A DNA stretch of 64,000 nucleotides, from assembly GCA_001563305.1 (NCBI GenBank), contig CP013703.1, positions 868,001-932,000 of the forward strand. The letters are read 5' to 3'. The translations under genes and the position numbers were made by a program. The notes beneath the pieces were generated by a model. It made no database searches, was not told where the DNA came from, and saw only the letters and a program-made list of their open reading frames with translations. Numbering within the stretch: the first letter of the stretch is position 1; each line of letters starts with the position of its first letter. Source of the stretch: a methanogenic archaeon mixed culture ISO4-G1. Its GTDB lineage: Archaea; Thermoplasmatota; Thermoplasmata; Methanomassiliicoccales; Methanomethylophilaceae. This document shows, in pieces, positions 9,673-45,699 of this stretch.

Positions 9673-10244
9673 TTGTCCTCACCTTTCATGACCGACGCTA
9701 TGAACTTGCATCCGTTCTTCGATGTGGCGTACATGCCATGGGGCTGTCCGCTGTTGTAATACACGGAATCGCCGGGTTCCAGATCGTAGAAGTGACCTGC
9801 GTGGACGAATCTCATCGTCCCCTCGAGGACGTAATCGAACTCGTTGCCTGGGTGGGTGGAGAGGTGTACGTTCTCGTCGTTGTCGCCCTCTATGTACGGT
9901 GCTATCACGACGAAGGTCTCGGACAGCCTGTTCTTCATGGTGTATCCGAGATGCTGGTATTCGAATCCCTTGCGCCTCTTCATCGGAAGGCCCTTGCCGT
10001 TCTTGACGAAGGTGCACTCGTTGAGGTGGGGTTTCTCACCCGTGAGGAGCTCTACCATGTCGATACCGCACCTTTCCGCGATCTTGTACAGGAAGGTGAA
10101 CGAGAAATCCATCTCTCCGGTCTCGTAAACCAGGTATTCTTCGGGGGTCTTTCCGACCACCGCCGCCATCTCCTCGACGGAGATGTCGCACATCTCGCGC
10201 ATCGCTTTGACACGCTCCGCTACTTCAGCTACTATTGGCTCCAT
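9669..10244 (-). CDS. XRE-cupin transcriptional regulator, copy 2
   Basis: A 191-residue paralogue of the regulator at 6019-6591. The XRE helix-turn-helix is near residues 10-60 (EMCDISVEEMAAVVGKTPEE) and the C-terminal cupin contains LEPGDSVYYNSGQPHGMYA. It shares the linker KNGKGLPMKRRKGFEYQHL with copy 1 (GLPINRRKGHEYYHL), so they arose from one ancestor. It lies 9 bp downstream of the third synthetase and overlaps synthetase 2 by 4 bp. Confidence 0.9.
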   Translation of the reverse strand: MEPIVAEVAERVKAMREMCDISVEEMAAVVGKTPEEYLVYETGEMDFSFTFLYKIAERCGIDMVELLTGEKPHLNECTFVKNGKGLPMKRRKGFEYQHLGYTMKNRLSETFVVIAPYIEGDNDENVHLSTHPGNEFDYVLEGTMRFVHAGHFYDLEPGDSVYYNSGQPHGMYATSKNGCKFIASVMKGEDK

Positions 10245-10253
10245 TTTACCACC

Positions 10254-11918
10254 TCATGCGTCGGGCCACAGCTCGTGGGCTGTCTTCCTCAGCTCGTATT
10301 TAAGAATCTTGCCTGCGGCGTTCATCGGAAAATCATCCACGAACGCCACGTATTTGGGCGTCTTGTACCAGGCGATCTGGCCGCGGCAGAAGTCCATGAC
10401 ATCCTGCTCGGTCATATCCTCGTAACCGGGGAACTTCACAATGAATGCCCCGGGCTGCTCGCCGTACTTCTGGCTGGGAACACCGACGACCTGGACATCC
10501 TTGATGCCGGGCATCTTGTAGAGGAAGTCCTCGACCTCCTTCGGATAGATGTTCTCACCGCCGCGGATGATCATGTCCTTGATCCTTCCGGTGACGTAGA
10601 AGTAACCATCCTTGTCCCTGTATCCCAGATCTCCGGAGTGGAGGTATCCGTTCTTGTCGATGACCTTCGCAGTCTCCTCGGGCATCTTGTAGTAGCCCTT
10701 CATGACGTTGTATCCTTTGCAGCAGAACTCGCCGATGACCCCGTCCGGGCACGGCTCGTAGGTCTCAGGGTCCAGGATGACGGTGTCCACACCCTGGAGC
10801 TTCTTTCCCACGGATGCGCACTTCTTCTCGAGGGAGGGCTCGTCGTATGTGGTCTGCGTCATTCCGGGGGAGGCCTCGGTGAGACCGTAGACGATGGTGA
10901 TCTCCTTCATGTTCATCTTGCTGACGACTTCCTCCATGGTCGATATCGGACAGGGGGATCCTGCCATGATTCCGGTCCTCAACGATGAGAAGTCGAACTT
11001 ATTGAACAGCTTGTGGTTCAGGATGTTGATGAACATCGTCGGCACACCGTACACCGATGTGCACTTCTCCTCCTCGATGGTGGTCATGACCTTGATCGGG
11101 TCGAACACCTCGCAGAAACACATCGTGACGCAATGGTTGATGCATGCCATGACTCCGAGCACGCATCCGAAGCAGTGGAACAGGGGCACGTTGATGCACA
11201 GGCGGTCTGTGGGACCGTAGTTCATGTTGGCTCCGAGCCAGTATCCGTCGTTGGCGATGTTGAAATGCGTGAGCATGACTCCCTTGGGGAATCCCGTGGT
11301 TCCGGACGTGTACTGCATCATGGTGACATCGTAGACGCTGACCGTGTCCTGTCTCGCCTTGTACTCCGCATCAGAGACGGTGATGGCCAGGGACTTGACC
11401 TCGTTCATCGAGTACATCCCGCGGTGCTTGGTGGGCCCCAGGAACACGACCTTCTTCAGGAACGGGTACTTCTCGCTGTGGAAGTTCTCCCTGGGCATGG
11501 TCTTGAGCTCGGGGACGAGCCCGTATACCACCTGCACGTAATCCGTGTCCCTCACACCGTCGATCAGGAACAGCACATCCATGTCGGACTGCCTGAGCAC
11601 GTAGTCCAGCTCGTCCGACTGGTAGTTGGTGTTGATCGTGAGGAGGATCGCACCGATCTTGGCGGTTGCGAACATGAGCGTGATCCAATCGGGGACGTTC
11701 GTTGCCCAGACGGCCACCTTCATTCCCTTCTCGACACCCATCGCCATCAATCCCTTGGCGACGCGGTCGACCTCCTGTCCCCACTGGGTCCAGGAGAGGC
11801 GGAGCTCCCTGTCGACGTAGACTATTGCGTCGTTGTCAGGATGCTCCCTTATGCATTTGTCCAGCAGGTCTCCTAACCTCTCTTCGCTGGTGATGTTCTT
11901 CCTTGGTACGCATACCAT
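10254..11918 (-). CDS. AMP-forming acyl-CoA synthetase, divergent member
   Basis: A 554-residue ANL enzyme with P-loop MQYTSGTTGFPKGVM, VYGLTEASPGMTQT, LHSGDLGYRDKDGYF, and the C-terminal MNAAGKILKYELR with the catalytic lysine. It belongs to the fatty-acyl-CoA synthetase (FadD-like) branch, not the branch of its two neighbours, so its substrate probably differs. It starts at the ATG at 11918, with a second ATG five bases downstream in another frame. The gene is the second in the operon, after the first XRE-cupin gene. Confidence 0.92.
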   Translation of the reverse strand: MVCVPRKNITSEERLGDLLDKCIREHPDNDAIVYVDRELRLSWTQWGQEVDRVAKGLMAMGVEKGMKVAVWATNVPDWITLMFATAKIGAILLTINTNYQSDELDYVLRQSDMDVLFLIDGVRDTDYVQVVYGLVPELKTMPRENFHSEKYPFLKKVVFLGPTKHRGMYSMNEVKSLAITVSDAEYKARQDTVSVYDVTMMQYTSGTTGFPKGVMLTHFNIANDGYWLGANMNYGPTDRLCINVPLFHCFGCVLGVMACINHCVTMCFCEVFDPIKVMTTIEEEKCTSVYGVPTMFINILNHKLFNKFDFSSLRTGIMAGSPCPISTMEEVVSKMNMKEITIVYGLTEASPGMTQTTYDEPSLEKKCASVGKKLQGVDTVILDPETYEPCPDGVIGEFCCKGYNVMKGYYKMPEETAKVIDKNGYLHSGDLGYRDKDGYFYVTGRIKDMIIRGGENIYPKEVEDFLYKMPGIKDVQVVGVPSQKYGEQPGAFIVKFPGYEDMTEQDVMDFCRGQIAWYKTPKYVAFVDDFPMNAAGKILKYELRKTAHELWPDA

Positions 11919-35688: not shown

Positions 35689-36513
35689 TCAATTGTCTTC
35701 GCCGGCGGACATCGTGGATCCAGTTGGCAGGATGTACAGGATACCGCCGGATTCAACCAGTTCGACCTCGATGTCAAAGACCTCTCTGATGGATTCCTTG
35801 GTGATGACATCCTTGGGCAGACCGTAATCGATGATCCTTCCTTTGGAAAGGAGCATGATGCGGTCGCAGAACCTCGTCAGAAGGTTGATGTCGTGGGATG
35901 CGAGCAGGATGGTCAGCCCCGTCCTTCTCGACAGGTCCTTCAGAATCTCCATGACCTGGATCTTGTACTTTATGTCTAGATGTGCGCTGGGTTCATCCAC
36001 CAGCATGACCTTCGGAGTCTGCACAACTCCCTTGGCCAGCAGGACACGGGCCCTTTCTCCGCTGCTCAGCTCATGCAGTCTCCTGTCGGCATACTTGGTG
36101 ATACCCATGTCGTACATGGCCTTGTCCACAATCTCCTCGTCTTCTTTGCTCTCCCACCAGAGGGAGTTGATGAACGGGGCCCTTCCAAGTGAAACGAAGT
36201 CCCTGACCGATAGTGCAAAATCCAGAGGGGTATCGGCAGGCACGGTTGTGACGATCTTCGCGATGTCCTCCATGTTCATGGACAGAACATCGTCACCGTC
36301 GATCTCCACACTGCCGCGCTTGACCTTCATGATCTTGTTGATACAGCGCATGAGTGTGGTCTTCCCGGAACCGTTGGGACCCATCAAAGCGACGAATTCA
36401 CCAGGTTTGATGCACATCTCGATGCATTTCAGGGTCTCTTCGTCCGTATAACTGAATGCGAGGTCCTTCACATCGAGCATGGGCCTTTCCTGACCGTTTT
36501 CCTCACATGGCAT
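35689..36513 (-). CDS. ABC transporter ATP-binding protein (BtuD/FecE-like)
   Basis: 274 residues. Walker A GPNGSGKTTLMR is near residue 44, the Q-loop lies in VTTVPADTPLDFA, the signature is LSSGERARVLLA, Walker B is VMLVDEPSAHLD and the H-loop is LLASHDIN. It is the FecE/BtuD type that imports iron chelates, haem or cobamides. It overlaps the permease gene by 11 bp. The C-terminal 30 residues extend beyond the ATPase core. Confidence 0.93.
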   Translation of the reverse strand: MPCEENGQERPMLDVKDLAFSYTDEETLKCIEMCIKPGEFVALMGPNGSGKTTLMRCINKIMKVKRGSVEIDGDDVLSMNMEDIAKIVTTVPADTPLDFALSVRDFVSLGRAPFINSLWWESKEDEEIVDKAMYDMGITKYADRRLHELSSGERARVLLAKGVVQTPKVMLVDEPSAHLDIKYKIQVMEILKDLSRRTGLTILLASHDINLLTRFCDRIMLLSKGRIIDYGLPKDVITKESIREVFDIEVELVESGGILYILPTGSTMSAGEDN

Positions 36514-37582
36514 ATCTCTTTCCCTCCTTCAACATAAGGTAGATGAAGAACGGGACACCGATAACCGATGTCAGTGCTCCGATGGGCAGTTCTCCGATAG
36601 GTCCGGATTTACAGACTATATCTGCCACCAGCAATACGACCGCACCTACGACGATGCTTGAGGGGATCAGCAATCTGTGGTCTCCTCCGACGACCATCCT
36701 GCAAAGGTGAGGGACGATCAGTCCGATGAAACCGATGACTCCACAGTATGCGACACAGAATGCAGTCAAAACAGCAGAGAGCATCAGCATCATCCTCTTG
36801 TACTTGCGTGAATCGAGCCCAAGATATTGAGCCTGGCTCTCTCCCAACAGCATGACGTTCAGCTTCCTTGCCTCCAGCAGTACGATCAACAGGATTGCGA
36901 TGATTGGAATCGCGATGATGCATACATCGCTCCATTGGATGTTGGCGAAACTGCCGAACATCCACGCGGTGATGCTGTGGATCTTGTCAGCATTGAGCGA
37001 CATGATCAGAGTAGTACCTGCACTGAGTCCAGCGGCGACGATAACTCCGCCAAGGACATAGCTCATGGCCTTTCCGCCGGCGGCCTCTGCGACGACCATC
37101 GTGATTGCAAATGCAACAATTGCTCCCACTATGGCACCTATGGGGGCCAGTACAAACGAAATGGACCAACCGGTCATTGCCCCGCCCAGAGTGAAAAGGA
37201 TCACACCGAAGGATGCTCCGGACGACACTCCGGTGACGTATGGATCGACCAATGGGTTGTGAATCATCGCCTGCATGACGGCTCCTGCGATGGCCAATCC
37301 AGATCCAACGAGTATGACTGCCAACGCCCTTGGAATCCTGAGATTGAGGATGATCTTTCCACTCATGTCATCCGGATTCCCTAAAGTGACGATGATTTTC
37401 CAGACCTGTTCCAGTGCCTCAGAGAATTCTATGGCATACGCGCCAACGGTGAATGAGACTACAAACAGCAGCAGCAATGCAATGAATCCTATCATAATGA
37501 TGACTGCGGCCCTCTTCTTCATCCTCTGGACGTTCGATAGCTGAGGCACGCCATCTTCATCATACGAACTGTTCTTATTCAT
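36503..37582 (-). CDS. FecCD/BtuC-family ABC transporter permease
   Basis: 359 residues with about ten hydrophobic helices. Family stretches are LRIPRALAVILVGSGLAIAG, NPLVDPYVTGVSSGASFG and GFIGLIVPHLCRMVVGGDHR. Residues 1-25 are a charged cytosolic tail. It pairs with the ATPase and the binding protein to import a metal chelate or corrinoid. The importer gene order is binding protein, permease, ATPase. Confidence 0.93.
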   Translation of the reverse strand: MNKNSSYDEDGVPQLSNVQRMKKRAAVIIMIGFIALLLLFVVSFTVGAYAIEFSEALEQVWKIIVTLGNPDDMSGKIILNLRIPRALAVILVGSGLAIAGAVMQAMIHNPLVDPYVTGVSSGASFGVILFTLGGAMTGWSISFVLAPIGAIVGAIVAFAITMVVAEAAGGKAMSYVLGGVIVAAGLSAGTTLIMSLNADKIHSITAWMFGSFANIQWSDVCIIAIPIIAILLIVLLEARKLNVMLLGESQAQYLGLDSRKYKRMMLMLSAVLTAFCVAYCGVIGFIGLIVPHLCRMVVGGDHRLLIPSSIVVGAVVLLVADIVCKSGPIGELPIGALTSVIGVPFFIYLMLKEGKRYAM

Positions 37583-37627: not shown

Positions 37628-38716
37628 TCAGTAGTCCTTGAGCCACTGGATGTAGTCGGTCCACTTCTCGCTGGTAACGACGGTAGGTACGTCGACTCCG
37701 GTGTCCTCGGGATTGACGATGGCTCCGATCAATGCAGCACCGTTGATGAGGTGAGCACTGTTGTATCCGATGGCCTGGAAGGGTTCGTATTCCATGCACC
37801 AGAACATATCGTTCTTGATACAGTCAACAGCTCCCAGAACGGGGTCAGCCTTCCATCCGGCTATAACTTCTGCCCAATTGAGATGCTGTCCCATATCATC
37901 GAAGATGATGAAATCAGGGTTGGCCTGTGCGACGGTCTCCTGGAGCTGAATTGTCTTGTAGGATCCCTCGGTGACGGGCAGAGCATTCACGAATCCGACA
38001 TCGTTAAGAAGACTGATGATGAGAGCGTTCTTGTAGATGTAGTTACCCCACGGAGGGCAGGTGCAGATGTATGCGAACTTCTTTCCGTTCAGATCAGACT
38101 TGGCAGCGACATCCTTGACCTTGTTGTATGCCTTCTGCATCTGGTCGGTGATCGTCTTAGCCAGAGACTGCTTTCCGAAAATCTTTCCCAGCATCGTGTA
38201 GTTGTCCAGACAGTCCTGGAATCCGTATTCGCTGTTGATGACGATAACGGTGATTCCCAGAGCCTGAAGGCTGGTCATCTTCACCTTGTTGGTATCCTCT
38301 ACCTGAGCCTTCTCAACTATCACGACATCCGGGTGAGCGGCGGAGGCGCCTTCTGCGGTCCATCCGTTGTAAGATCCGATATTCGCGATCTTTCCGGAAT
38401 CAATGTCAGCGGGAAGGCCCGCAGGATAATTCAGGTCGAATGTTAGACCGACCACGTAATCTATCACATCATACACGTAGGATCCGCTGGTGATTCCGAC
38501 TATGGTGTTCCTGTAACCGAGGTTACAGAGCATCTCCGATGAGACAGCACTCGTACTTACGATCCTCTTGGGCTCCTCTTTCAGTTCAATCACATTTCCG
38601 GCGTAATCTGTGACGCCTTCCTTGTGGTCCTGGGGGGAGGAGAGGATCATGACCGCTGCAATGGCAACAACGGCCACCACGGCGATCGCGACAATAATCG
38701 ATACTTTCTTGTCCAT
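37628..38716 (-). CDS. ABC transporter substrate-binding protein (BtuF/FecB-like)
   Basis: 362 residues from ATG 38716 (MDKKVSIIVAIAV). An N-terminal hydrophobic anchor (residues 5-25) is followed by an extracytoplasmic domain with the class III folds EPKRIVSTSAVSSEMLCNLG and DFIIFDDMGQHLNW. There is no lipobox cysteine, so it may be held by the helix. The ligand is an iron chelate, haem, corrinoid or similar. The frame is open seven codons further upstream. First gene of the importer operon. Confidence 0.9.
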   Translation of the reverse strand: MDKKVSIIVAIAVVAVVAIAAVMILSSPQDHKEGVTDYAGNVIELKEEPKRIVSTSAVSSEMLCNLGYRNTIVGITSGSYVYDVIDYVVGLTFDLNYPAGLPADIDSGKIANIGSYNGWTAEGASAAHPDVVIVEKAQVEDTNKVKMTSLQALGITVIVINSEYGFQDCLDNYTMLGKIFGKQSLAKTITDQMQKAYNKVKDVAAKSDLNGKKFAYICTCPPWGNYIYKNALIISLLNDVGFVNALPVTEGSYKTIQLQETVAQANPDFIIFDDMGQHLNWAEVIAGWKADPVLGAVDCIKNDMFWCMEYEPFQAIGYNSAHLINGAALIGAIVNPEDTGVDVPTVVTSEKWTDYIQWLKDY

Positions 38717-38765
38717 AGTATCGGATGATAGAACCAACTGTCATTATTTAAATGGATTTATCATC

Positions 38766-38796
38766 CAACTAACTATGATATTCTTAGAATTAGTTG
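38766..38796. promoter_or_regulatory. inverted repeat upstream of the importer
   Basis: CAACTAA (38766-38772) and TTAGTTG (38790-38796) are spaced by 17 bp, 50 bp upstream of the binding-protein start, and next to AT-rich TTATTTAAATGG. A metal-responsive repressor site is possible but rests on position alone. Confidence 0.35.
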
Positions 38797-38886
38797 CTCA
38801 ACAATTCATAATCTGGCTCACCAAAAAAGGCCACATCAAACAGAGGTGAGAAAGTCTGTAACGGTCTCAGATGTGCCAAAAGACCG

Positions 38887-41031
38887 TCATTTCAAACTCC
38901 CTTTCTTCCACCCCTCGTCATTGGGGAGTCTAAGTATGTTCTCCACATATTCTACGTAATCCAAAGAAGGCTGCAAACCCACACCTATCCTCCCCAGCCT
39001 TGCGAACGGCAGGTCTCCGTGAGGGCTGTTTACATTGGCGATGATGAGATCCGGACCGAGCTCCGCCAGATCCCTTCTCAGCTGTTCGGAGTCGTAGTCC
39101 TGCGTGATCATCTCCAGATGTCTGGAGGCGACCTCTGCCCTCTCCTTCCTTGCACTGAATTCGGCCCCTATCCTGACCAATTCCGCGCCCAGGTCCATCA
39201 GGATGTCGATGAGCCAATCGATGTCGTAGTTCAGCTTGTTGACGATGATGATCCTCTTGCCTGAAATTTGCTTGGAATGCTCGGCGATGAAATCCGAGTA
39301 TGTCCTTTCCATCTCCCTGATCTGCCGGGATGGGTCCTTACCCATCATATCCCCGATGACCGTCATCCATTCCCTGCATTCGTACAATCCGGTGGGGAGC
39401 GGGATCGACATGGGTTCCCTCCCGGTCCTCTTCCGGATAGGTTCGTATATGTCGCGGTTGTTGGCCGTGTTGTTGAGCATGATGTCGACCGATGCGCGGC
39501 AGAACCCTTTGACGGAATCCAGAGTCGTGGCGTCCAGGAACCTGCAGTTCACCTTCAGATCGAAACTGGACAGCAGCCTGTTCAATTCGGACATGTTCCT
39601 CTCGGTGTGGACGTCGAAGAATGTCGTGTCGATAAGGTTCACATAACCCTTCTCGGGCTTGATGCTTACATCCATCAGATTCGCCAGACATGTTGCTGCC
39701 GCGATGTAGCCATCGTTGTATTCTCCCGCGATGTCTCCGTCAGTAGGTATCAAGAGGATCTCTGCCCCGTCGTAGAGCTTCTTCACATTCTCCACCACGC
39801 GTTCGCAGTCATCCCCGATGATCCCTGGCATGCATGTGGTGACCACCACGACCTTCCTGAATCCCTCGTCCAGCATGGACTTGAGTCCCCATTCCAGATA
39901 CTCCACACCACCGAAAACGGAGACCGCATCGTCCATCATGGTGCACCTGACCCTGTTGGTGAGGATGCCCCTTACGGCCTTCTTCCCGTACAGGTCAGAA
40001 ATCCTGCTGTAGACGGGTGCGTTCATGAAATACAGACAGCTCTCCGGCCCGTGCAGCAGTATCCCCACGTCGTTAATCCTGCAGATCGCGTTGACCGCAC
40101 CGCATGCAGCACATGACTGCATCACACGGGTATCGTTGATGGAGGTCCTCCTGCAGGACTGGCAGCTACTGTGGCCCATGTCGGCCATCTCCACATGCTT
40201 GGCCGCGCGGATCTCCCTGCCCGCGATGAGGTCGGTGAACTGGTCGTCGTCCAACGGGTGCGGGTATACGCAGCTATTCACGCCTTTAGATATTCCTTTT
40301 ATGTATAGTGCCAGATCATCGAATCTATGAGCTATTTCCGAATCGGGGAACAGCTCCCTGACGGTATGACCCTGACCCTCCGCTTCCGAGAACAGCTGGT
40401 CCCTGGGTATTTCGGCTATGATGCTAGTGCCCGTGGCAGCGGCGAATCTCTCGACCACATCGCGCTCGTTGTCCCCGCCGCGGGAATTGAATATTATACC
40501 GATGAAACGGGGCTTGCCGGTATCGAAGTTCCTCAGCCCCTTCATTATGTTGTTGGCCGCATAGATGGACATGAATTCGCCGGAGGTCACTAGGGCGACC
40601 CCGTCCGCATTTTCGTTCCTGAGAGGAACGGCGAAGCCTCCGCAGACCACGTCCCCCAGGACATCGTAGAGCCTAACATCGACATCCAAGCCCTTGGCCC
40701 CCAGCTTCTTTAGGGTGTCCAGAGCGGTGAGTATCCCCCTTCCGGCGCATCCGATACCCGGTTTGGGACCTCCCGCCTCGGCGCAGAGTATCCCATTGGT
40801 GCCTACCTTCACGATATCGTCTAGTTCCCTCTGATCGGACTGGGTCTCACGGACGTAATCCATGATAGTCCTCTGAGGCACCCCTCCGAGGAGGAGCCTG
40901 GTGGAATCATGCTTCGGATCACATCCGATCTGCATGACCCTGTCCCCCATGTAGGAGAGGGCCACCGAGATGTTGGCAGACATGGTGGATTTCCCTATCC
41001 CGCCTTTGCCGTACAGAGCTATCTGGAACAT
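38887..41031 (-). CDS. single-chain NifH-NifD-like nitrogenase-family protein (CfbC/CfbD-like fusion)
   Basis: 714 residues from ATG 41031 (MFQIALYGKGGIGKST); the frame is open 48 codons further but without domain content. Residues 1-250 are a complete NifH-type reductase: Walker A G8-T16, IGCDPKHDST, Fe-S ligands C95 (GIGCAGRGI) and C130 (GDVVCGGFA). Residues 285-700 are a NifD/CfbD-like catalytic part with cysteines C290, C293, C307, C310, C317, C332 (LLHGPESC), C400 (TTCMPGIIGDD) and C511 (GFCRASVD). CfbC and CfbD together reduce Ni-sirohydrochlorin diamide in coenzyme F430 synthesis, and this is the leading assignment. Other nitrogenase-like reductases are not excluded. Neighbours are a FecBCD-like importer and a BchID-like pair. 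Confidence 0.85.
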   Translation of the reverse strand: MFQIALYGKGGIGKSTMSANISVALSYMGDRVMQIGCDPKHDSTRLLLGGVPQRTIMDYVRETQSDQRELDDIVKVGTNGILCAEAGGPKPGIGCAGRGILTALDTLKKLGAKGLDVDVRLYDVLGDVVCGGFAVPLRNENADGVALVTSGEFMSIYAANNIMKGLRNFDTGKPRFIGIIFNSRGGDNERDVVERFAAATGTSIIAEIPRDQLFSEAEGQGHTVRELFPDSEIAHRFDDLALYIKGISKGVNSCVYPHPLDDDQFTDLIAGREIRAAKHVEMADMGHSSCQSCRRTSINDTRVMQSCAACGAVNAICRINDVGILLHGPESCLYFMNAPVYSRISDLYGKKAVRGILTNRVRCTMMDDAVSVFGGVEYLEWGLKSMLDEGFRKVVVVTTCMPGIIGDDCERVVENVKKLYDGAEILLIPTDGDIAGEYNDGYIAAATCLANLMDVSIKPEKGYVNLIDTTFFDVHTERNMSELNRLLSSFDLKVNCRFLDATTLDSVKGFCRASVDIMLNNTANNRDIYEPIRKRTGREPMSIPLPTGLYECREWMTVIGDMMGKDPSRQIREMERTYSDFIAEHSKQISGKRIIIVNKLNYDIDWLIDILMDLGAELVRIGAEFSARKERAEVASRHLEMITQDYDSEQLRRDLAELGPDLIIANVNSPHGDLPFARLGRIGVGLQPSLDYVEYVENILRLPNDEGWKKGSLK

Positions 41032-42717: not shown

Positions 42718-42820
42718 AACCATTAATCTGGGCCTCGGGCATTCGGGGCCATTTATCCATTCCAACATCCATTATATCCTAGCATCCTGTTACATACTCT
42801 AATTGTCTAGGAGCTCGGCC

Positions 42821-43858
42821 ATGTCAGAGAAAGAGGTCAACCTGCAGTTCCCCTTCGTCCGCATAGTTGGACAGGAGGATATGAAGCGCGCACTGTTGTT
42901 GAATATCATCGATCCAGGGATCGGGGGCGTGCTGCTCAGAGGGGAGAAGGGTACGGCCAAATCCACCACCGTGCGTTCCCTAACGCAGATCCTCCCGGAG
43001 GTCAACGCCATAGAGGGATGCCAGTTCCACTGCAACCCCGACAACCAGAGATACCTCTGCGAGGACTGCAAGAAAAAGATGGAATCCGGCAAGTACAATG
43101 TCATAAAACGCAACATGCAGGTGGTGGAGCTCCCGCTCAACGCCACCGAGGACCGTATCTCCGGAAGCCTGGACATCGAACATGTCCTCCGCACCGGGGA
43201 GAGGAAATACGAGGGAGGTGTGCTGGCACAGGCCAACGGCAACCTTCTGTACGTCGACGAGGTCAATCTCCTGGACGACCATATCGTCGACCTGCTTCTG
43301 GATTCAGCGGCGATGGGCCGCAACTTCGTCGAGAGGGAAGGGATCTCGTACTCCCACCCTGCCAAGTTCGTACTCATCGGTTCCATGAACCCCGAGGAGG
43401 GAACGCTCCGCCCCCAGCTCATGGACCGTTTCGGAATGTGCGTCGAGATCAAGAGCGAGAGGGACCCTCAGGTCAGGGTCGAGGTCATCAAACGCAGGCT
43501 CGCGTTCGATGCGGATCCCGAAGGATACACCGAGGCCTGCAAGGCCGACACCGAGGAGCTCAAGCAGAGGATCGCCCGCGCAAAGGAACTCGTCGGCAAG
43601 ATCGATGTCCCTGACAACGTCCTGAACGCCATCGCGATGGTCTCCATCGGATTCGTCATGGAAGGGCACCGTGCCGATATCGCCATGATACGCGCCGCCA
43701 AGGCAAATGCCGCACTCGACGGCAGGACGAAGATCGAGTTCAAGGACATCTCCACTACGGCGCCGCTCATCCTGCGCCACCGTCTCAAGTCCGGTCCGTT
43801 CGAGGAGGCCAACTTCCGCCAGAACGAGCTGGATTCCATCATCAGGGGGTATCTGTAA
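42821..43858 (+). CDS. AAA+ ATPase, magnesium-chelatase I subunit-like
   Basis: 345 residues from ATG 42821 (MSEKEVNLQFPF). Walker A is RGEKGTAKSTTVR near residue 37, LYVDEVNLLDDHIVD is Walker B, GSMNPEEGTLRPQLMDRFG the sensor region, and RVEVIKRRLAFD the lid. A CxC-rich insert (CQFHCNP...CEDC) resembles that in BchI-type subunits. It drives metal insertion into a tetrapyrrole with a VWA partner and a large subunit; no CobN/BchH gene is in this window. Ends in TAA and is followed by its partner after 20 bp. Confidence 0.87.
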   Translation: MSEKEVNLQFPFVRIVGQEDMKRALLLNIIDPGIGGVLLRGEKGTAKSTTVRSLTQILPEVNAIEGCQFHCNPDNQRYLCEDCKKKMESGKYNVIKRNMQVVELPLNATEDRISGSLDIEHVLRTGERKYEGGVLAQANGNLLYVDEVNLLDDHIVDLLLDSAAMGRNFVEREGISYSHPAKFVLIGSMNPEEGTLRPQLMDRFGMCVEIKSERDPQVRVEVIKRRLAFDADPEGYTEACKADTEELKQRIARAKELVGKIDVPDNVLNAIAMVSIGFVMEGHRADIAMIRAAKANAALDGRTKIEFKDISTTAPLILRHRLKSGPFEEANFRQNELDSIIRGYL

Positions 43859-43878
43859 TCCTAAGGCCGGAAGAGTTC

Positions 43879-45699
43879 GTGGGGATGGAAGACTCCCTGC
43901 GCGCTCTAGAGTGCCTGATGTGCAATCCCGACCTCCACGGACTCCTAATCAAGGGTCCCGCAGGATCCGGGAAATCCGCACTGATCCATTCGTTCTCCAG
44001 CGCATATACTGGAAAGAAGGCACTCGTCATCCCCCAGAACATAACCGACGAACAGCTGTTCGGGACCATAGACCTGGAGGAGGTCCTGGCCACCGGGAAC
44101 ATGTCCTTCGAGCCAGGACTTCTCGGGAAGGAGGACGGGATACTCCTGGTGGACGACGTTAACCTGCTACCGCGCAACATGTCCCTGGCACTCATGGATT
44201 CGGTCCACAGGGGCAGGGTCCACATCGAGAGGGAGGGATTGTCAGTCTCATACCCATGCAGGGTCAAGGTCGTGGCCACGGCCAACGACCGCGAGCAGCC
44301 TCTGAACTCGGCCGTGAACGACCTGTTCGACATGTGCGTCGTCCTGGCGAGGGAACCTGACCAGGAGAAGCGTGTCGCCGTGATGAGGAACGTCATGGGC
44401 GAGTCGCAGGACGAACTGGGGCAGGATCAGGATCTCGTCGACAGGATCAACGTCGGCAAGGCAAACATCAAGAATGTTGGTATCTCAGACGACATGCTGA
44501 GCGTCATAGTGAAGGTGTGCGACGAATACGGCACGCAGGGCCTTCGCGGAGAGCTCTCGGCGGCCAGCGTCGCTCGGGCCTCGGCCGCCTTGGACGGCCG
44601 CCGCGAAGTGGAGAGCCAGGATGTGGAGTTCGCACTCAAGGTCTGCGTCCCGCACCGCCGCACCAGGGCCAAGAAGAAGGAAAAGGAGGAGAAGGAGGAC
44701 AGGGTCCTGTTCTATCCCAACAACATCCTGAAGAAATACCTCACCAGGGAGAAACCCAAACCCAAGGAGAAGAAGGTCCAGGATATGACCGAGGAGGAGC
44801 TCTCCGAGGAGAACGTCAGTTCCGCTGCTGACAGCGGTTCCTCCGAAAAGGATCCGGACGACGACGTGGTCTTCAACATGGCCAGCCTCTTCGATTCGAT
44901 AGACCTGCTGGAGGACAGCCGTAAGAAGAGGGGCATGGACACCCACCTGCTCCGCCGTTACATGAAGGACACGGGAAGGGACGGAAGATACGTGTCGTCA
45001 CGTCACGCCGAGAACACCACCGACGATCTGGCCATCGATGCCACCATCCGCTATGCCGCACCCTACCAGAAGAAGAGAAGGGAGAGCACCGGGAGGGATG
45101 GGGTCATAATCATGCCGTCGGACCTCAGGCAGAAGGTCAGGGAGAGGCACACCTCATGCATGTTCTTCTTCATGATCGATAACAGTGGTTCGCTGATAAT
45201 CAGGGCCAGGATGAGAGCCGTCAAGGCGGCAATCATGTCGATGCTGACCGACCATTACATCCGCAGGGACAGCGTCGCGATAATGACATTCAACCAGGAC
45301 TACATCAGGATGCTGCTTTCTCCCACCCGTTCGGTGGGCGGGGTCCAGAAGGTCATCGAGGACATCCCTGCCGGTTCCAAGACACCGCTCTCGGGTGCGT
45401 TGGTTTACATGCACGAGTATGTGGGCCAGTATCTGAGGAAGCATCCTGCCGATGTGGCCTTCGTCGTGCTTATGACGGATGCCGACGCGAACATCTCCAT
45501 CGATCCGGACAAGGATCCGTTCGAGGAGGCCCTGGAGATCGCCTCCCGCATCCGCATGGACCGCCTGGAATGCGCCATGGTCGACATCAAGGTCTCCAAC
45601 CAGGTCAACGATAAGGCAAGGAAGCTGGCCTATGCTCTTCAGGCACCGTATTACAAGATAGAGGATCTGAAATCCTCGGAAGAGATCCTCAACAGATGA
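43879..45699 (+). CDS. AAA+/VWA protein, magnesium-chelatase D subunit-like
   Basis: 606 residues from GTG 43879. The stretch LRPEEFVG just upstream is in frame and looks coding but has no ATG/GTG/TTG, so the true start is uncertain. The AAA+ part at 1-250 has Walker A KGPAGSGKSAL and LLVDDVNLLPRN. A low-complexity charged linker spans 260-345. A von Willebrand A domain at about 425-600 carries the MIDAS motif D434-N-S-G-S438. It pairs with the I subunit next door as in cobalt or magnesium chelatases. Confidence 0.85.
   Translation: MGMEDSLRALECLMCNPDLHGLLIKGPAGSGKSALIHSFSSAYTGKKALVIPQNITDEQLFGTIDLEEVLATGNMSFEPGLLGKEDGILLVDDVNLLPRNMSLALMDSVHRGRVHIEREGLSVSYPCRVKVVATANDREQPLNSAVNDLFDMCVVLAREPDQEKRVAVMRNVMGESQDELGQDQDLVDRINVGKANIKNVGISDDMLSVIVKVCDEYGTQGLRGELSAASVARASAALDGRREVESQDVEFALKVCVPHRRTRAKKKEKEEKEDRVLFYPNNILKKYLTREKPKPKEKKVQDMTEEELSEENVSSAADSGSSEKDPDDDVVFNMASLFDSIDLLEDSRKKRGMDTHLLRRYMKDTGRDGRYVSSRHAENTTDDLAIDATIRYAAPYQKKRRESTGRDGVIIMPSDLRQKVRERHTSCMFFFMIDNSGSLIIRARMRAVKAAIMSMLTDHYIRRDSVAIMTFNQDYIRMLLSPTRSVGGVQKVIEDIPAGSKTPLSGALVYMHEYVGQYLRKHPADVAFVVLMTDADANISIDPDKDPFEEALEIASRIRMDRLECAMVDIKVSNQVNDKARKLAYALQAPYYKIEDLKSSEEILNR

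Follow-up and report, generated by a model that had tools for sequence, protein, structure and literature searches.

A NifH-NifD-like fusion family in Methanomassiliicoccales and its predicted role in corrinoid or tetrapyrrole salvage

The genome of ISO4-G1, a Methanomassiliicoccales isolate from the sheep rumen (PMC4824259), encodes a protein in which a NifH-like reductase and a NifD-like catalytic part form one chain. Judged by sequence, this protein belongs to a fusion family with a clade and an architecture of its own among nitrogenase-like enzymes. The fusion is called HD below, its usual NifK-like partner K, and the two together HDK. We put at about 0.5 the probability that HDK enzymes of this family are ATP-driven macrocycle reductases acting in the salvage or (de)metallation of corrinoids or related tetrapyrroles, a substrate and a reaction that we infer from gene company. 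The window, the 64-kb stretch of DNA that was analysed, covers positions 868001-932000 of a genome of 1,593,503 bp in one contig. Its features are as follows, in window coordinates; positions in kb refer to the genome.

35689-36513, minus strand: importer ATPase; scores highest, though below cut-off, with the NCBIfam model 'corrinoid ABC transporter ATPase'
36503-37582, minus strand: FecCD/BtuC-like permease; nearest NCBIfam model BtuC, below cut-off
37628-38737, minus strand: FecB/BtuF-like binding protein (PF01497)
38738-38886, minus strand: gap of 149 bp between HD and the binding-protein gene; site of the NifK-like gene in relatives, no K here
38887-41031, minus strand: HD, NifH-NifD-like fusion of 714 aa; start ATG at 41031, stop at 38887-38889; homologous fusions exist
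40222-41031, minus strand: H reductase domain, NifH-like, residues 1-270 (PF00142; AlphaFold2; Fe-protein fold matches at TMt of about 0.9)
40984-41010, minus strand: P-loop GKGGIGKST, residues 8-16, invariant in 22 fusions
40747-40749, minus strand: C95, first of the two H-half Cys ligands for [4Fe-4S] (NifH alignment)
40642-40644, minus strand: C130, second of the two H-half Cys ligands for [4Fe-4S] (NifH alignment)
40114-40221, minus strand: linker, residues 271-306, mostly predicted disordered (pLDDT <50 at 279-305); holds a CxxC pair
38890-40113, minus strand: D catalytic domain, NifD/NifE-like, residues 307-714 (PF00148; profile matches to NifE, VnfD and NifD)
40111-40113, minus strand: C307, NifD Cys62 position (alignment)
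40036-40038, minus strand: C332, NifD Cys88 position, in HGPxxC (alignment)
39832-39834, minus strand: C400, NifD Cys154 position (alignment)
42803-43858, plus strand: BchI-like AAA+ chelatase subunit; nearest model putative cobaltochelatase TIGR02442, below cut-off
43879-45699, plus strand: BchD-like AAA+/vWA chelatase subunit (profile matches)

The original prediction described NifH- and NifD-like parts in a single 714-residue chain that keeps its reductase cysteines and several candidate ligands in the second part, and both descriptions hold. The minus strand from 38887 to 41031 is one uninterrupted frame, while the corresponding plus-strand frame is interrupted by stops. The PF00142 (NifH-like) match spans residues 3-271 at 292.9 bits and the PF00148 (NifD-like) match residues 307-669 at 179.9 bits, both far above the Pfam cut-offs. 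A frameshift or missed stop is excluded, with fusions of about 700-790 aa present in many other species. C95, C130, C307, C332 and C400 are all invariant in 22 fusions, and the three in the D half align with the P-cluster Cys of NifD/VnfD. AlphaFold2 modelling (22 fusions) gave a mean pLDDT of 81 and a pTM of 0.55, with residues 1-270 and 308-703 folded and residues 279-305 disordered; the closest PDB folds to the model are nitrogenase Fe proteins. The window HD thus has the features of the nitrogenase superfamily, a NifH-type reductase with P-loop and [4Fe-4S] ligands and a NifD-type part with cluster Cys.

A scan of genome contigs found fusions across the Methanomassiliicoccales, in samples from the rumen, colon, termites, digesters and other sources, and in bacteria of the Oscillospiraceae and one Syntrophobacteraceae MAG. 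The query matched 47 of 60 relatives, some through CfbC only, and many carry several full-length fusions. Each part of the enzyme has its own clade in maximum-likelihood trees (quick mode), with support of 100 for the fused D halves, 99 for the K partners and 95 for the fused H halves, and all three lie apart from the NifD/E/H, BchN/Y/L/X, MarD/H and CfbD/CfbC references. Since H and D halves are each monophyletic, they most likely moved together from one fusion event, and a single origin of the family is most likely. The joining of parts that are normally separate is real but not unusual in its own order, and relatives add a NifK-like third chain. The sole mention of a natural fusion found in the literature searched is a 'fused nifH/nifE' of Ca. 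Methanomassiliicoccus intestinalis, which serves as a landmark in an origin-binding-site table (Borrel et al. 2014, PMC4153887). It comes from the same order, its annotation notes the fusion, and it probably belongs to this family; the passages on it differ from the present account in describing neither a function nor a K partner nor a link to a chelatase or importer.

ISO4-G1 itself has four fusions: the window HD and copies at 1,004, 1,210 and 1,532 kb, the last of which contains an in-frame TAG. In-frame TAG codons, one per gene, occur in the seven fusions read for this (L016, L034, L189-L193), and in this pyrrolysine-using order they are probably read through as Pyl; a Pyl site of shared function in the family was rejected, as the TAG positions differ and are unconserved. 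In the 1,532-kb copy (L016, 9297-11435; genome ~1,531.3-1,533.4 kb), the TAG lies between an invariant Pro and Gly (window residues 546/548). Apparent internal TGA codons were checked in the fusions of G023 and G027 and proved to be ordinary terminal stops. ISO4-G1 also encodes a very diverged NifD/NifK-like pair with no NifH (L019, 8148-13273; genome ~1,099.1-1,104.3 kb), adjoining a Fec-type ATPase, permease and binding protein. In locus L091, a fusion-family D protein without an H half (9920-11245) lies between CbiZ and K; either H was lost or the reductase of another copy is used. Very long binding proteins (about 940-1240 aa), which begin with a dockerin-like part and carry repeated modules at the C-terminal end, occur near HDK in rumen-type MAGs (L104, 7260-10991, and L113, L114 and L119).

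The original prediction favoured F430 synthesis, and here it fails. ISO4-G1 has separate cfbC, MurF-like cfbE and cfbD genes at about 331.7-335.6 kb, named by position and similarity, in a compact cluster (330-336 kb) that includes a CbiA/CfbB-like protein. A separate cfb cluster is also reported for Methanomassiliicoccales in PMC4153887. CfbCD resembles the fusion as a nitrogenase-like tetrapyrrole reductase of methanogenic archaea, and the H half reaches 309.1 bits with the CfbC model NF033200. CfbD moreover operates without a NifK homologue, as a K-less window HD would have to. The CfbC score nevertheless falls below the cut-off of 402, and the CfbD model TIGR03282 returns 20.8 bits against a cut-off of 268.4. 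Both halves fall in clades apart from CfbC and CfbD, relatives of the window HD carry K, fusions also occur in non-methanogenic bacteria, and CfbCD has no importer or chelatase partner. We rule out this identity and give next to no credence to the window HD being the reductive cyclase of F430 synthesis. What stands of the earlier reading is the tetrapyrrole or metal-cofactor setting, with a putative B12-type importer (binding protein, permease and ATPase) and a BchI/BchD-like pair beside the fusion.

The cluster ligands point to a different type of enzyme. To our knowledge, all characterised nitrogenase-like enzymes except Cfb have a NifK-type third subunit. The K family of the fusions has one invariant Cys (C32), at the NifK C95/BchZ position, where BchB has Asp, and the other two NifK P-cluster Cys are missing. 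In the D family, the FeMoco ligand positions (Cys275/His442-type) are not Cys or His. The resulting pattern of three Cys in D and one in K, with no cofactor ligands, is that of the dark-operative protochlorophyllide and chlorophyllide reductases (DPOR and COR), although only its D part is present at the window locus. By sequence, the family lies outside DPOR and COR, the BchL/BchX models giving 178-186 bits against cut-offs of 331-345 and the clades being separate. From the ligands, a chlorophyllide-reductase-like [4Fe-4S] enzyme is predicted. In chlorophyllide reductase, the [4Fe-4S] cluster directly reduces the bound tetrapyrrole.

COR (BchX/BchY/BchZ) is accordingly close in kind, being an H, D and K set that reduces a macrocycle. 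Its D has three Cys, and of the NifK Cys its K-type subunit keeps just the one at the HGPxGC position. It differs in having its components on separate chains and in other clades, and it serves bacteriochlorophyll synthesis, whereas the fusion hosts are not phototrophs. DPOR (BchL/BchN/BchB) likewise has no FeMoco ligands and a catalytic [4Fe-4S], and Roseobacter/Sulfitobacter plasmids hold bchN-bchB-(BchH/CobN-type chelatase)-bchL together, so that there, too, a nitrogenase-like enzyme is paired with a CobN/BchH chelatase. It is set apart by the BchB Asp in place of the K Cys, by separate chains and a different clade, and by the absence of an importer or CbiZ.

The same ligands bear on whether the family could be a small-molecule nitrogenase-like reductase (methylthio-alkane, isethionate or diazotrophic) with a FeMoco-like cofactor made by way of NifB. 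A NifB-family protein in ISO4-G1 scores above its cut-off at 460 bits, and one Oscillospiraceae copy (L112) adjoins a cysteine-synthase-like gene in a genome without CobN. The cofactor Cys/His of D are replaced, however, while a MarD-like protein keeps the Cys; two of the three P-cluster Cys are missing from K; and the D and K clades lie apart from Mar and Nif. NifB, moreover, has a different role in methanogens, which concerns the MCR activation complex and its complex Fe-S clusters. The full FeMoco-type set, D cofactor ligands with three K P-cluster Cys, is not found in the fusion family. We reject a FeMoco-type enzyme on the D ligands and consider a small-molecule reductase very doubtful. 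The NifB-family gene lies at genome positions 1292025-1293206 (L204, L205), and no true nitrogenase was recognised in ISO4-G1.

For the macrocycle reductase, the indications of substrate come from neighbouring genes. The fullest relative of the window locus, in Methanomassiliicoccus sp. QR_Bin.16 (L084), reads FecB-FecC-FecD-CbiZ-BchI-BchD-HD-K with a convergent CobN. Another reads FecBCD-CbiZ-D-K-CobN (L091), and four more (L106, L095, L098 and L089) are overlapping partial versions of the L084 operon. In the Syntrophobacteraceae MAG (L099), HD-K has a BtuF-CbiZ protein nearby. The BchI-like family of the window also occurs beside HD in L084, L089 and L107 and beside K in L098. ISO4-G1 has seven CobN homologues, at 540, 568, 673, 767, 1129, 1230 and 1563 kb (L175-L181), and one of these belongs to an importer-BchI-BchD-CobN operon that lies 18 kb from the 1,210-kb HDK. 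Several of the seven adjoin Fec-type importers, and in the ISO4-G1 stretches that were read there are only two BchI/BchD pairs, in the window and in L180.

This association extends across genomes. HD and CobN are concordant in 57 of 60 genomes (33 with both, 24 with neither), and their copy numbers, counted by hand in genomes that are related and not independent, correlate with a Spearman coefficient of 0.91. A CobN is found no more than 10 kb away from 14 of 76 HD copies, against 5.3 expected (z of 2.1-4.3), a test that is weakened by fragmented assemblies and repeat-counted syntenic orthologues and so gives support, not proof. CobN was not found in four Bacillota genomes tied to fusion loci L112, L115, L116 and L118 (the L118 gene being cut by a contig end), or in the archaeal relatives G033 and G040 despite their HD. 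CobN is thus a frequent partner and no strict requirement. CbiZ, present in 50 of the 60 genomes of the order, is so nearly universal that its co-presence with HD says little, adjacency excepted. The literature searched held no paper connecting CobN or CbiZ of these archaea to a nitrogenase-like enzyme. Archaeal CobN homologues are described in the HmuS paper as lying apart from other cob genes, with their use unclear (PMC12583661). HmuS/BtuS of gut Bacteroides offer a parallel, as CobN-superfamily proteins that salvage metal from environmental tetrapyrroles in gut anaerobes, and differ in that no nitrogenase-like partner is described for them (PMC12583661, PMC6460266).

Fec-type importers are close to most HDs and would also suit a metallophore or siderophore system, in which HDK would reductively free metal from imported chelates. 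ISO4-G1 has 15 annotated Fe3+/siderophore ABC systems (PMC4824259), and one of its HDK copies lies beside phosphopantetheinyl-transferase-like and NRPS-like genes. Linkage to CobN, BchI/BchD and CbiZ has no known siderophore role, however, and the importer models favour B12, so that we regard this alternative as rather improbable. The copy concerned (L018, 7846-15986; genome ~1,001.8-1,010.0 kb) is the most diverged HDK of ISO4-G1 and adjoins a universal-stress-like protein as well; its NRPS-like ORF is possibly the pyrrolysine-containing NRPS mentioned in PMC4824259. Its position hints that not every HDK copy acts on tetrapyrroles.

At the window locus, the importer genes lie downstream of HD on the same strand, from 38737 down to 35689. 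The BtuC and corrinoid ATPase models score best on them, yet below cut-offs, and the same is true of the class-I chelatase models (TIGR02442/TIGR02030/TIGR02031), with 471/413 bits for the BchI-like and 371/336 bits for the BchD-like protein. The window permease groups (support 100) with the permeases of the CbiZ-HDK operons L084, L091 and L106, and the locus thus resembles that operon in a rearranged state. The importer and BchI/BchD would have been retained, HD would come from another subfamily, and K, CbiZ (at 305 kb) and CobN would lie elsewhere. The BchI/BchD pair at 42803-45699 is encoded on the other strand, three unrelated small genes away from HD, which speaks against the proposed role. 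None of the TPR, small and membrane genes that separate HD from BchI recurred near another HD examined, and we leave them out of the proposed system.

The window copy is also unusual in its partner. A NifK-like gene lies directly downstream on the same strand in 53 of the 54 fusions with readable downstream sequence, the sole exception being the window HD, and no K gene occurs anywhere in the 64-kb window. The window HD shares 58% identity with the 1,210-kb copy. Orthologues of the latter occur throughout the genus at 55-78%, while the 30 other species of the genus yielded none of the window HD. The 20 orthologues of the 1,210-kb copy agree fully at 219 columns of H and D; the window HD departs at 19 of these and other copies of that clade at 0-7; it matches 69 of the 76 D columns invariant in the same set. 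Such excess change at invariant columns, beyond that of any other copy of the clade, together with the missing K and the lack of an orthologue, would suit a decaying or non-functional duplicate related to the 1,210-kb HD that has lost its K. Against decay, the 714-codon frame is intact, every cluster ligand and all nucleotide-site residues are kept, and the importer genes are intact and co-directional. The window-specific changes, moreover, are scattered over H and D and are not clustered at ligands or in one domain. We regard decay as unlikely, if worth keeping in mind. The window HD has diverged from its paralogue at 1,210 kb, has no K of its own and most likely shares the K of that copy. 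We favour the 1,211-kb K as the source of its fourth ligand; another K or a CfbD-like homodimer may serve instead.

For the family as a macrocycle reductase, we propose the following mechanism. The NifH domains of two chains would come together as an ATP-binding dimer, with a [4Fe-4S] cluster held by C95 and C130 of each. ATP hydrolysis would drive electrons to a second cluster, presumably [4Fe-4S], held by C307, C332 and C400 of D and C32 of K. As there are no FeMoco ligands, the substrate would receive its electrons from this cluster itself, in the manner of chlorophyllide a reductase. With H and D covalently joined 1:1, a D2K2 core would bring two H domains, that is, one Fe-protein dimer and not two. 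The flexible tethers of ~36 residues would allow half-site docking in place of free association. The substrate would be a macrocycle, likeliest a corrinoid or another metallo-tetrapyrrole. The BtuFCD-type importer would deliver it, and CbiZ and the class-I chelatase CobN/BchI/BchD would take part in its processing, in salvage, remodelling or (de)metallation. With B12-type importers and cobalt/magnesium-chelatase genes beside the family, the enzyme probably reduces an imported B12-like or related ring and does not serve F430 synthesis.

These results tentatively suggest an unrecognised anaerobic pathway of gut methanogens, a fuller proposal to which we give somewhat less than even odds. In it, scavenged corrinoids or other metallo-tetrapyrroles would be taken apart, re-metallated or remodelled by a tethered single-chain reductase working with CobN-BchI-BchD, CbiZ and a dedicated importer. 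A genome would hold several paralogous sets for different substrates, and in ISO4-G1 one fusion would work without a K of its own. In nitrogenase-like enzymes, a separate Fe protein is thought to dock and release in cycles. A family with reductase and catalyst covalently joined 1:1, and hence one reductase dimer per D2K2, would allow a direct test of that view. The methylotrophic methane formation of the rumen and gut methanogen hosts depends on corrinoid proteins, so that corrinoid supply is of practical interest. The gene linkage, finally, offers a testable role both for an uncharacterised nitrogenase-like clade and for many archaeal CobN homologues (PMC12583661).
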